A DNA stretch of 13,195 bases, taken from Microcaldota archaeon. GTDB taxonomy: Archaea > Micrarchaeota > Micrarchaeia > Norongarragalinales > UBA8480. The notes beneath the pieces were generated by a model. It saw nothing but the letters and a program-made list of their open reading frames with translations. It did not search any database and was not told the origin of the DNA. The stretch is taken from assembly GCA_023247085.1 (NCBI GenBank), contig JAHFHC010000002.1, positions 1 through 13,195 on the forward strand. The letters run 5' to 3'. A program made the translations under genes and the position numbers. Positions 5,113 through 9,353 of this stretch are shown here, in pieces; within the stretch, counting starts at the first letter, position 1; each line of letters begins with the position of its first letter.

Positions 5113-5592
5113 TCACAATTTATTCAACTTAAACGGCGTCACCATTGCCAATGCGCTTACAGCCAATGCCCAAACAGTAAACATCGGTAAAAACGCGTTT
5201 ACTAGCAAAACTATTAATGCCGCAAATGGAGTTGGCAACCCCCAAAAATACCGTTTGTCTTTTTGCAAATTAAACCAAGCTAACCGCAACAACCCAGTAC
5301 AAGCGAATAACGCACTTGCAATTGTCAAAAACACATCTGGCGAAAGCTTCATCGCAACAACCGTTGGCGCAACAACAAAAGAAACCGTATCTGCCAACGA
5401 GTCCAACTCTTTGCCAAACTCATTAGTGGCTTTTGTCCTCCTCGCTACTCTCCCGTCTAGAAAGTCAAACAACACAGCTGGAAAAATATAAAGCCAAGCA
5501 AAACCTTGTCCAGAAATCGCAAGTGAAATGCCCACTATGCCACATAATGCATTGCAAAGTGTCAATAAATCCTTTGAACCAAGTTTTTCCAT
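5113..5592 (-). CDS. CDP-alcohol phosphatidyltransferase, probably archaetidylserine synthase
   Basis: A small membrane enzyme (159 residues from the chosen start) that transfers a CDP-activated lipid to an alcohol. The complete family signature DxxDGxxARx8GxxxDxxxD is visible as DFLDGRVARR, then an 8-residue spacer, then GKELDSLAD, giving all the metal-binding aspartates. It is flanked by hydrophobic helices. The opening LGSKDLLTLCNALCGIVGI and the GLPTPFAALIVLL segment resemble the phosphatidylserine/archaetidylserine synthase branch, so L-serine is the likely acceptor, but archaetidylglycerol or -inositol phosphate synthases share the motif. I chose ATG 5592. An upstream TTG at 5619 would add nine residues but lies inside the TATA-like sequence, which instead predicts a leaderless transcript beginning at about 5588-5592. 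The gene faces srp54 head-to-tail with a 57-base gap. Confidence 0.85.
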   Translation of the reverse strand: MEKLGSKDLLTLCNALCGIVGISLAISGQGFAWLYIFPAVLFDFLDGRVARRTKATNEFGKELDSLADTVSFVVAPTVVAMKLSPDVFLTIASALFACTGLLRLAWFNLQKDKRYFWGLPTPFAALIVLLVNAFLPMFTVWALAVSALAMVTPFKLNKL

Positions 5593-5606
5593 CGTGTTTA
5601 AAACAT

Positions 5607-5628
5607 TGTTTTTATACAATTAAAACAG
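5607..5628. promoter_or_regulatory. Divergent AT-rich promoter between the phosphatidyltransferase gene and the tRNA
   Basis: On the minus strand GTATAAAAAC (5608-5617) sits about 21 bases before the ATG at 5592, a good archaeal TATA box for a leaderless message. On the plus strand the adjoining AATTAAAAC (5619-5627) lies about 30 bases before the tRNA 5' end at 5655. The two promoters appear to abut or share this AT-rich island. Motif reading only. Confidence 0.45.
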
Positions 5629-5674
5629 TAGCCCCAACTTACTAGGGGATAAAAGGGCCTATAGCTTAGCCTGG

Positions 5675-5724
5675 CGAACACCTATCTTCCTTATGAATAA
5701 TGGGATGAAAGGGAATTCGGGCAA
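5675..5724 (+). other. D-loop intron of tRNA-Ile (50 nt, bulge-helix-bulge)
   Basis: A bulge-helix-bulge can be drawn. The central 4-bp helix is exon GCCT (5669-5672) with intron GGGC (5719-5722). The 5' bulge is GG|C (5673-5675), the 3' bulge AA|T (5723-5725), and the inner helix GAA (5676-5678) with TTC (5716-5718). Cleavage after the second base of each bulge gives a D-loop reading AGCCTGGTTG. The intron body can fold further, for example TTA (5691-5693) with TAA (5698-5700). An alternative cut would give an A at position 21, but it has no comparable helix. Confidence 0.7.
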
Positions 5725-5743
5725 TTGGAGCGCCAGTCTTATA

Positions 5744-5785
5744 AGACGTCAACAGAAACCAAAAACGCTGTTGTAGCTCCAAGTT
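5744..5785 (+). other. Canonical 37/38 intron of tRNA-Ile (42 nt)
   Basis: This interrupts the anticodon loop between A37 (5743) and A38 (5786); the ends may shift one base because of a repeated A. The exon CTTA (5738-5741) faces intron CAAG (5780-5783): three pairs and an A-C mismatch, so the bulge-helix-bulge is relaxed. Inside, CAACAG (5750-5755) and CTGTTG (5768-5773) form a perfect 6-bp stem. Confidence 0.75.
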
Positions 5786-5821
5786 AACTGGTGGTCGTGA
5801 GTTCAAATCTCACTAGGCCCA

Positions 5822-5928: not shown

Positions 5929-8900
5929 ATGTTTGCTATGTCAAAATCTAAACATAGTGAAAAAAGTAAAAAGCATGGTTTTTGGAAGAAGACTCTTTTT
6001 GGCGTTTTTGTAGTTCTGCTCGTTGTAGTAGCTGCAAATGTTTTTCAAACACAATCTAGTTTAACTGGATATCCTGTATACTCTCGCTCATATATTGGCG
6101 AAGCTGGAGGGGTGTCGCCAGTTGGTTTACATGATTTTGTAATCACGATGGAGAATCGCACTTTGACCCTTGACGGAGCGGTAAGAAATTTAACTTTACT
6201 GCGTTTGTTAGGAGCGAACAATACTTTGCGGTTAGAAAATGGTTACCAAAACTATTTCCTCTATGTGGTAATAGATTCTAGAGATAACCCTTTATCTTAT
6301 ACGACATCTTACATTGGTCGTGTGGTTTACTATAATTACACTGCAAACCAGTGGAAAACGTTATCACTTTATAGAGACGGCGTACGCTATAACAATATTC
6401 TCAATACCACTTCCCCGCGTAGAGGATTTGGAATAACTTACATTACAAATAATTTAACAAACGCAAGAACGCCAACAGCGCAAATACTTGTAAGTGGTAC
6501 GATTAATCCTGGTAACTACTTTAGTGGAAACCTTCAAGTGATAGATGGCTTTAATGCAACTGCGTTTAACTCTACACTCGGCCAAGGTGGGACGTGGGAT
6601 ATTCCGTTTTCAAAAGTGGGTTTAGGAGCCACAAACAACACGTCCGCGAACTATTTGTATTATGACTCTGCAGTCGGACCTCAAAACAGCTGCTATGGCC
6701 CACACTGTGCACGAGTCAGCCCGCCAATTAGCTATACTGCGAATGTACGCTATTATAACTCTCCTGCTGGAGTAATGCTTGAAACTTTTAGTCGAACTCG
6801 AATTCAATTACGTGAAACTAGTTCGCCATTGAATTCATTTAAGTTTACTTGTACTGATTCAGACCCCGCGAACGATCCTTACATTGCAGGGAGTGTAAGT
6901 TTAGCAAATCCGCTAAATTTAAGTTCTGGCTACGCAGCGGGATATGACCGATGCATGTCAGCGAGCACCGCAAATGCAACAAATGAATATGTCTGTACAA
7001 CTGGGTTAAGCGACAACCTTGACAACAATGGATGTGGAACTAGTTCCAGTGCATTGAGCAGGTCAACTAACAAAGCCGCTTACAACGCTGCACTTCCAAG
7101 AACTTGGAAAGAAGTATCTGACTCTGACTGGAGTGCGCTTGGACTTGGATCTGCCGGAACTGTTGGCGTTATAGGTTCGTCTACCGCCTCTTCAACACAA
7201 CGCCAATTCTTGGAAGTTTTCTCAAAAACTCAATATGACGACCAACAGGATTCTTATGTTGCAAATGGAATGGAAGCAATGTGGAGAACGACTTTTTCAG
7301 CTCCACTTCCAATGTGTGCTGACACTTCGAAGTCATATGCCGCTTGTGATGCGTCTGATAAAATAGACGCAACTTCTGCACCAACTATAATCACTATCCT
7401 TGGTTACTCGTGGGTAGTTACTGGTGCAGCAATGACTGGTACAAATGCGGCAATTAGTTCACTAAACGTTGGAAAGGCCTATTTAGTGAGAAAGACGCTC
7501 AGAGTCGGTGAAGAAACAGCAGTTGCTGGCACTCCGTTTAAGATAAGAGTTGACCAAGTCAATGCTCCGGCTGGGGTAAGTTCACTACCATCTTGTAATA
7601 TAGTGATTTCAGATGCAACGAACCGTTCAGTTCTAATAACAAGGGATCGAGACAGTCCAGCGGTTAAGGTAACTGAACTTGGAGACATCTACGTTAAAGT
7701 GAGTGCAATTGGTTACTCTGCAGCAGCAGGGGCAATTAACACTTGTGAAGTGTCAGCTTACTCTGACTCAATCACATTGTCCAACAGTACAATTAATCAA
7801 ACCCTTTATCCAAACTGGAAAGCAGTACTTGATTCAAACAATAGGTCGGGAACTCAAGGTTTGTCTGATTTGAGAATTTACAATGACAACTGGGTCTACC
7901 CCTCAACTGGCAACATCAAAGCCAAGCCAGGTGACAAGTTCACGATGGTTAATGGTTTAACCTCTAATGCGAGTTATGTGCTTGAATTCAGGGGCTCTGA
8001 CTTAAAGCCAGCTGACTTTGACACTTTGACTGTTAGTGAAGATGAGGGATTCTCAGCCACTATTGGAGGCACTGCTGGTGAATGGGCTGCTCTTAAGTTC
8101 TGTTCTAATCGAACTGATGCATTTAGGTTTGGAACTGAAAACGTGCGGTGTGTAAACTTGATAACCAAGAACAAGACTAGCCCCGGGTCTAACAATAACT
8201 ACACTGGGTACGTTGTGTACCAAAACTCGTCTGGAACCTGGGTAAATGCATCTGGATCTGATGTCACTAGGACATTTTACAACTCCACTCGTGGAGCTAA
8301 CTTAACTGTTGTTCTACCTTTGTATTACTATGGGGCTGGAGGCGGGTCAGACACAAGCGTCCGAATCAACGTAACTTTTGATGGAATGTCAAGTGGAAAG
8401 GGTGACTGTGTTACGAAACCGCGCGGTTGCTCTGCCTTTATGGGCAGCGGTAACTATGGCTGGAACTACACTAGGTTAATCATCCAGATTCCTGAAATAG
8501 ATAATGAAAGTACGAGTTCAGTAGCTGGATCTGGCATTTGGACTACGTATTACCTTTTTGACTCAGCAGCAGGTGCTGCAGGTAACTTCAGGGACGCAAC
8601 TGCGGATGGTACAACTACCAACAGGAACGTTAACTACACTGCAAACGCATTTGGAATTGTATTCAATTCAGAACCACCTTACTGTAGCGTAAGGGGTTCA
8701 TGTGTTGAAGCAGCTGGGCATGGTGCAAGTTCATTCATCCTTAAGTACGCAACTCGCCTTGGAAAGGCAGTATACGTGCTACGCAAGATAGCGAGCACCG
8801 TAAATGCAACAACAACTGCAAACGCAATGATTACTCAAAGCGCTGATTGCAATGCCTTAACACAACTGCCGCAAGTTAACTATACTTCGGTTATGTGTCC

Positions 8901-8943
8901 AACTTCGCTATGTAACGCTGCAAATACTGCTTGCGCTCGATAG
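5929..8943 (+). CDS. Large secreted or cell-surface glycoprotein, S-layer-like, family not recognised
   Basis: A 1004-residue protein with a basic N-terminus (residues 5-21, rich in Lys and Ser) and one hydrophobic segment (about 22-38, LFGVFVVLLVVVAANVF), then SSLTGYPV: a signal peptide or signal anchor. The rest is outside-type sequence, rich in Ser, Thr, Asn, Gly and Tyr, with about thirty N-x-S/T sequons and about twenty cysteines, some closely paired (CYGPHC, CVTKPRGC). I see no C-terminal membrane helix and no sorting motif, so anchoring would be N-terminal. The size, single anchor, glycosylation potential and strong promoter fit an S-layer or major surface protein, but I recognise no named domain. 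ATG 5929 fits the TATA spacing; an in-frame ATG at 5938 is an alternative. Codon choice shifts along the gene: AGG is rare among Arg codons in the first half and common in the second. Confidence 0.8.
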   Translation: MFAMSKSKHSEKSKKHGFWKKTLFGVFVVLLVVVAANVFQTQSSLTGYPVYSRSYIGEAGGVSPVGLHDFVITMENRTLTLDGAVRNLTLLRLLGANNTLRLENGYQNYFLYVVIDSRDNPLSYTTSYIGRVVYYNYTANQWKTLSLYRDGVRYNNILNTTSPRRGFGITYITNNLTNARTPTAQILVSGTINPGNYFSGNLQVIDGFNATAFNSTLGQGGTWDIPFSKVGLGATNNTSANYLYYDSAVGPQNSCYGPHCARVSPPISYTANVRYYNSPAGVMLETFSRTRIQLRETSSPLNSFKFTCTDSDPANDPYIAGSVSLANPLNLSSGYAAGYDRCMSASTANATNEYVCTTGLSDNLDNNGCGTSSSALSRSTNKAAYNAALPRTWKEVSDSDWSALGLGSAGTVGVIGSSTASSTQRQFLEVFSKTQYDDQQDSYVANGMEAMWRTTFSAPLPMCADTSKSYAACDASDKIDATSAPTIITILGYSWVVTGAAMTGTNAAISSLNVGKAYLVRKTLRVGEETAVAGTPFKIRVDQVNAPAGVSSLPSCNIVISDATNRSVLITRDRDSPAVKVTELGDIYVKVSAIGYSAAAGAINTCEVSAYSDSITLSNSTINQTLYPNWKAVLDSNNRSGTQGLSDLRIYNDNWVYPSTGNIKAKPGDKFTMVNGLTSNASYVLEFRGSDLKPADFDTLTVSEDEGFSATIGGTAGEWAALKFCSNRTDAFRFGTENVRCVNLITKNKTSPGSNNNYTGYVVYQNSSGTWVNASGSDVTRTFYNSTRGANLTVVLPLYYYGAGGGSDTSVRINVTFDGMSSGKGDCVTKPRGCSAFMGSGNYGWNYTRLIIQIPEIDNESTSSVAGSGIWTTYYLFDSAAGAAGNFRDATADGTTTNRNVNYTANAFGIVFNSEPPYCSVRGSCVEAAGHGASSFILKYATRLGKAVYVLRKIASTVNATTTANAMITQSADCNALTQLPQVNYTSVMCPTSLCNAANTACAR

Positions 8944-9068: not shown

Positions 9069-9353
9069 ATGAATGTTGAAAAAATAGCAATGCAGCGGTG
9101 CAGTGAATTACTAGTTCTTGCCAAGCAAATGTGGAAAAAAGATAGTGTGCTATCAAAGCGTTACGTTCAACTAGCGCGTAAAATAGCGATGCGGCATAGG
9201 TTAAAACTAAGGCGGCGAACGTTTTGCAAAAAGTGCAACGCAATTTTCATATTTGGAGAAAACGTAACTAGCCGCACTTCAAAAAAAGAAAACGCTGTAC
9301 TATGGAAATGCAATTGCGGAAACGTATTGAAATTTCCTATAAAGCGCAAGTAA
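9069..9353 (+). CDS. rnp4: Ribonuclease P protein component 4 (Rpp21/Rpr2 family)
   Basis: A 94-residue basic protein that pairs with Rpp29 on the specificity domain of archaeal RNase P RNA, which removes 5' leaders from pre-tRNAs. The N-terminal helical part (about 1-50, with LLVLAKQMW and LSKRYVQLARKIAMRHRLKL) matches the family. It is followed by a zinc ribbon with cysteine pairs FCKKC (53-57) and CNC (about 80-82) flanking a TSRTS segment. The length is typical (90-120). The chosen ATG 9069 begins just before the conserved helix; a weak GGGAT-like element lies some 12-15 bases upstream. It is separated from rps19e by 164 bases carrying a separate promoter, but the same-strand placement fits a translation and RNA-processing cluster. 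Confidence 0.9.
   Translation: MNVEKIAMQRCSELLVLAKQMWKKDSVLSKRYVQLARKIAMRHRLKLRRRTFCKKCNAIFIFGENVTSRTSKKENAVLWKCNCGNVLKFPIKRK

Follow-up and report, generated by a model that had tools for sequence, protein, structure and literature searches.

Positions 5655-5821 of the window, by which we mean the whole 13,195-nucleotide stretch of DNA analysed, hold what looks like a tRNA-Ile(UAU) gene interrupted in both its D loop and its anticodon loop. The question is whether such a locus can be a working gene and which part it would play in reading AUA codons. We consider it almost certain that it is a single functional tRNA-Ile(UAU) gene, from which two BHB introns would be excised to leave a tRNA that reads AUA. 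The anatomy, splice motifs, conservation, enzyme genes and lack of a detectable TiaS are read from sequence; from them we infer transcription, actual splicing, charging and decoding.

The host is a very small groundwater archaeon, represented by a Candidatus Micrarchaeota MAG of 892,562 bases in 36 contigs, about 92% complete. The SRP54 protein encoded in the window is 96% identical to its counterpart in nzgw34, a Candidatus Micrarchaeota MAG; the following four matches are likewise Micrarchaeota. The tRNA gene is flanked upstream by a gene for a CDP-alcohol phosphatidyltransferase (5113-5619, reverse strand, identified by Pfam) and on the other side by a gene for a 1004-aa protein. The latter (5929-8943, forward strand) carries a hydrophobic stretch at its N terminus, matches no Pfam family, and lies between the tRNA gene and that for Rpp21 (9069-9353).

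Exons, introns and splice motifs

The gene comprises three exons of 20, 19 and 36 nt and two introns, of 50 nt in the D loop (19/20) and of 42 nt in the anticodon loop (37/38), all on the forward strand. Exon 1 (5655-5674, GGGCCTATAGCTTAGCCTGG) carries the 5′ strands of the acceptor and D stems and the D loop through G19. Exon 2 (5725-5743, TTGGAGCGCCAGTCTTATA) supplies the remaining D arm, the 5′ strand of the anticodon stem and the anticodon UAU through A37. Exon 3 (5786-5821, AACTGGTGGTCGTGAGTTCAAATCTCACTAGGCCCA) holds A38, the 3′ strand of the anticodon stem, the variable loop, the T arm, the 3′ acceptor strand and A73. The exons were assigned from splicing and conservation, and both introns (5675-5724 and 5744-5785) from the BHB scan. 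Intron 2 contains an internal hairpin (5750-5773) in which CAACAG (5750-5755) pairs with CTGTTG (5768-5773).

Joining the exons gives a 75-mer in which the acceptor stem has seven pairs, the anticodon and T stems have five each, and the D stem includes one G-U; ARAGORN folds it as a complete cloverleaf and names it tRNA-Ile(tat). A first-pass annotation had proposed this gene in three exons, with 50 nt removed from the D loop and 42 nt from the anticodon loop to leave 75 nt; splicing, the ARAGORN call and the BHB scan bear it out to the base. It had also expected standard scans to miss the gene on account of the interrupted D arm, as indeed they do. ARAGORN detects nothing in the unspliced window, and with the Rfam tRNA model the unspliced gene scores 22.6 bits, below the cut-off of 29, its 5′ half being placed wrongly inside intron 1.

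The hallmark of an archaeal BHB intron is a 4-bp helix with a 3-nt bulge on either side, spanning the junctions of intron and exons; our scan compared only border choices that leave the tRNA, including its D arm, intact. Both window introns show this motif. The central helix of intron 1 has all four pairs (GCCU:GGGC), formed between the exon strand GCCT at 5669-5672 and the intron strand GGGC at 5719-5722, with three outer and three inner pairs; the next-best borders give 2/4. Intron 2 has the relaxed form with 3/4 central pairs, the exon strand CTT (5738-5740) pairing as CUU:AAG with 5781-5783, and A35 facing a C as the mismatch. A fold of the window pre-tRNA with the cloverleaf and both BHBs enforced has an energy of −47.0 kcal/mol compared with −55.5 kcal/mol unconstrained; the BHB form is thus reachable and not the predicted minimum. 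Among the 37/38 introns longer than 12 nt across the class (n = 84, the window included), 66 have 4/4 central pairs and 83 at least 3/4, with UAGG, UAAG, UGAG and others as variants of the central helix.

The predicted gene is therefore a multiple-intron tRNA gene, with two introns in one contiguous gene. A split or permuted tRNA is ruled out, as the three exons are contiguous and in order. Group I introns are likewise ruled out by the lack of an Rfam match at the gathering score and by lengths (50 and 42 nt) that are far too short. A box C/D guide in intron 2 was discarded, as neither RUGAUGA nor CUGA boxes are seen by eye.

One could suppose that only the anticodon intron is spliced and that the D-loop insert is retained, enlarging the mature D arm, given that by inspection the anticodon and T arms fold with or without intron 1. 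This is extremely improbable. Removing both introns yields exactly the D arm (TAGCTTAGCCTGGTTGGAGC) of the genome's own intronless tRNA-Ile(GAU) (L008), and if intron 2 alone is taken out ARAGORN fails to call tRNA-Ile(UAU). Furthermore, D-loop introns recur in the tRNA-Lys and tRNA-Glu of the same genome, and the insert sits in a full BHB that is kept in the relative G001 with a different inner helix (AACC:GGTT) around the same 4/4 central helix. Rejection by the standard scanners, and the fact that a contiguous D arm is impossible without removal of 50 nt, might instead point to a tRNA pseudogene broken by a D-loop insertion, AUA being decoded by another tRNA. We regard this too as very unlikely: a full BHB surrounds the insertion.

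Relatives, multiple introns and splicing enzymes

Two further species of the same genus, G001 and G002, carry both introns with the same architecture and in the same place. The exons of G002 are identical at 75/75 positions and those of G001 at 72/75, but intron 1 is 50 nt in the window, 98 nt in G001 and 46 nt in G002, the last with six mismatches and four gapped positions relative to the window and with 3/4 central BHB pairs. Near-identical exons around introns that have diverged in sequence and length exclude chance, and across three species they speak against a pseudogene. The genome is a metagenome assembly and the arrangement could in principle be an assembly or binning artefact; as separate genomes share the architecture in the same place, we find this vanishingly unlikely. 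The same-site D-loop intron was seen beyond the three-species genus only in G063, of another family, and the D arm is uninterrupted in G003 and G005 (same family) and in G008 and G017 (same order).

Within the window's order the tRNA-Ile(UAU) gene has one to five introns, and two or more are common. The G009 orthologue (L134, G009:C92, ~5.4-5.8 kb) has four, at 9/10, 29/30, 37/38 and 59/60 (37, 29, 38 and 61 nt). That of G015 (L144, G015:C17, ~19.3-19.8 kb) has five, at 9/10, 29/30, 37/38, 53/54 and 59/60 (94, 92, 35, 85 and 23 nt), which leave one exon of just 6 nt (TTCAAA). No intron in either gene falls below 3/4 central BHB pairs, and each gene yields a clean tRNA-Ile(tat) once spliced. 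From the open reading frame list, a similar CDP-alcohol phosphatidyltransferase gene adjoins the G015 gene.

Multiple introns are a frequent feature of the host genome itself. A survey that drew on 24 Rfam tRNA matches found at least six other two-intron tRNAs, Lys(UUU), Lys(CUU), Thr(UGU), Arg(CCU), Gly(GCC) and Gln(CUG), each intron with 3-4 of the 4 central BHB pairs. In tRNA-Gly(GCC) (L023) both introns, one at 53/54 and the other at 59/60, fall within the T arm and enclose a 6-nt exon TTCAAA as in G015. We also observed partial tandem copies of tRNA 5′ ends (GCCTCCGTAGCTCAG; CGCCTTAGCTCAACGGTAGAGCAC) directly upstream of the full tRNA-Thr(UGU) (L022) and tRNA-Tyr (L012) genes. Hairpins with arms CTTTTCTTT / AAAGAAAAG recur in tRNA introns, flanks and intergenic DNA (e.g. 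L017, L022, L027), a pattern suggestive of the spread of a single short element.

Multiple-intron tRNA genes have been described in Thermoproteales and in ARMAN-1/2 (Sugahara 2008 and Fujishima 2011, as reviewed in PMC4033280 and PMC6379350). The gene is thus of a known kind. The first-pass annotation, correct in every structural respect, overstated only its rarity for this lineage, in view of the ARMAN-1/2 cases (PMC4033280), the other two-intron tRNAs of the genome and the frequency with which tRNA-Ile(UAU) itself has two or more introns in the order; a two-intron tRNA-Ile(UAU) is ordinary here. The published genes likewise combine a BHB intron at 37/38 with others elsewhere in one tRNA, relaxed motifs and an EndA type of broad specificity. 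The window gene differs in isotype and in its lineage within Micrarchaeota, and its orthologues reach four and five introns whereas the tRNAscan-SE 2.0 paper gives three per tRNA as the archaeal maximum (PMC8450103). A non-exhaustive literature search found no archaeal tRNA with more than three. In the Asgard archaea Atabeyarchaeia and Freyarchaeia, which are not Micrarchaeota, most tRNAs similarly contain introns, often more than one and often away from the canonical site (PMC11291895). A tRNA-Ile(UAU) of Cyanidioschyzon merolae has three introns, in the D, anticodon and T arms (PMC9602550); isotype and interruption of the D and anticodon arms are shared, but the organism is a eukaryote and the case presumably independent. 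Less ordinary is that tRNA-Ile(UAU) occurs class-wide, that its orthologues reach four and five introns and that intron and D arm show a conserved complementarity, to which we return below.

The enzymes that such introns call for are present. A 193-aa fragment of the genome's EndA aligns with residues 198-387 of the ARMAN-2 epsilon2 EndA (PDB 4fz2) at E 3.7e-82, compared with 2.6e-19 for the next entry; in the assembly a stretch of N breaks the gene, and in G002 the orthologous frame is open over 409 aa. The endonuclease is accordingly assigned, by homology, to the epsilon2 (ARMAN) type with a three-unit protomer, alphaN-alpha-betaC. Reviews describe enzymes of this type as cleaving relaxed BHBs at numerous sites within tRNAs (PMC6379350, PMC12397907). 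The RtcB ligase is intact (G000:C19). Elsewhere, RtcB frames of ~950 aa with a large, intein-like insert near model position 50 are found in G008, G011, G014, G018, G020 and G027, and the RtcB frame of G015 is split and contains in-frame stops. We propose that the gene would be transcribed as one pre-tRNA, that the three-unit endonuclease, accepting relaxed and off-site BHBs, would excise the 19/20 and 37/38 introns, and that RtcB presumably joins the exons.

Decoding of AUA

AUA accounts for 69 of the 3741 codons in the window's genes. An intact tRNA-Ile(UAU) elsewhere, which the first-pass annotation had named among the findings that would count against its reading, was looked for, and no second gene was found in the ~92% complete genome. 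TiaS (PF08489) was detected in none of 114 relatives, with four of four archaeal controls positive. As neither a second tRNA-Ile(UAU) nor TiaS was found, the UAU tRNA is probably the only AUA decoder of the host; the same two results speak against a pseudogene, which presupposes another decoder. The mature tRNA would replace the agmatidine-modified CAU tRNA of most archaea.

tRNA-Ile(UAU) occurs across the class: of 295 genomes, 224 match a search pattern in which the D arm of this tRNA runs uninterrupted. In a 2018 survey of 167 archaeal genomes (PMC6000648) this tRNA was recorded in two, those of Korarchaeum cryptofilum and Nanoarchaeum equitans, where a UAU anticodon likewise serves AUA. 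The Korarchaeum tRNA-Ile(UAU) also bears an intron and its tRNA-Ile(GAU) none (PMC6000648), as in the window's genome. In contrast to those two genomes, the tRNA is class-wide here and the window gene has a second intron.

The anticodon intron and the D arm

Intron 2 contains a segment, GCTCCAA (5776-5782, forward strand), that is the full complement of the D-arm exon TTGGAGC (5725-5731) and overlaps the BHB strand; about 1% of shuffled introns equal it. In the class outside families f10/f14 and outside the window's order (e.g. L156-L179, L191-L219), a complement to the D arm lies at fixed intron positions 6-13. There, 83% of the intron-D-arm pairs hold in 44 distinct sequences, compared with 22-52% in slid registers, and 0 of 2000 permutations reach the observed value, sequence relatedness being retained in this test. 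Covariation is observed at two positions of the helix as T-A, C-G and G-C exchanges. Intron positions 2-4 are GAC or GGC (GRC) outside f10/f14 with few exceptions, as assessed with a search pattern free of GAC, and can pair with G30-U31-C32, which would place UUAUA in a hairpin loop.

These features are not universal. Families f10/f14 have neither the D-arm complement nor the conserved GRC, and two of their genomes (L184, L189) are intronless at 37/38, by which the anticodon intron is rejected as an absolute requirement. Within the window's own order the helix is strong in G000 (the host), G002, G003, G017 and G024 and weaker in G001; it does not occur in G010, G014, G021, G023, G026 and G027, so we rejected the idea that it is universal there.

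Where it occurs, the helix crosses the anticodon stem and must therefore be an alternative or pseudoknotted form. In yeast, the intron of tRNA-Ile(UAU) is required for Pus1 to form Psi34 and Psi36 (PMC4090602). As the yeast intron is needed for modification of the same tRNA, intron-dependent modification is our preferred reading of the complement. We suggest, tentatively and with the greater part of our belief withheld, that selection may keep the Micrarchaeota anticodon intron as part of an alternative hairpin formed before splicing. D-arm positions 20-26 would pair with intron 6-13 and G30-U31-C32 with GRC 2-4, exposing UUAUA to an anticodon-modifying enzyme, so that the UAU anticodon would decode AUA but not AUG in the absence of TiaS. 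The window intron would be a variant in which the D-arm complement has moved to the 3′ side. The yeast tRNA is alike in anticodon, intron site and decoding problem (AUA versus AUG). It differs in that the part of PMC4090602 available to us describes no conserved intron-D-arm helix.

The tRNA-Ile(UAU) that the 2018 survey found in 2 of 167 archaeal genomes (PMC6000648) thus spans a class whose examined members yielded no TiaS. Standard scanners overlook the gene, so the tRNA repertoires of Micrarchaeota are probably underestimated and their decoding of AUA described incorrectly. The orthologues with four and five introns, one with a 6-nt exon, test the limits of tRNA splicing. If the intron-D-arm helix is functional, archaea and yeast may have reached the same intron-dependent solution for reading AUA.
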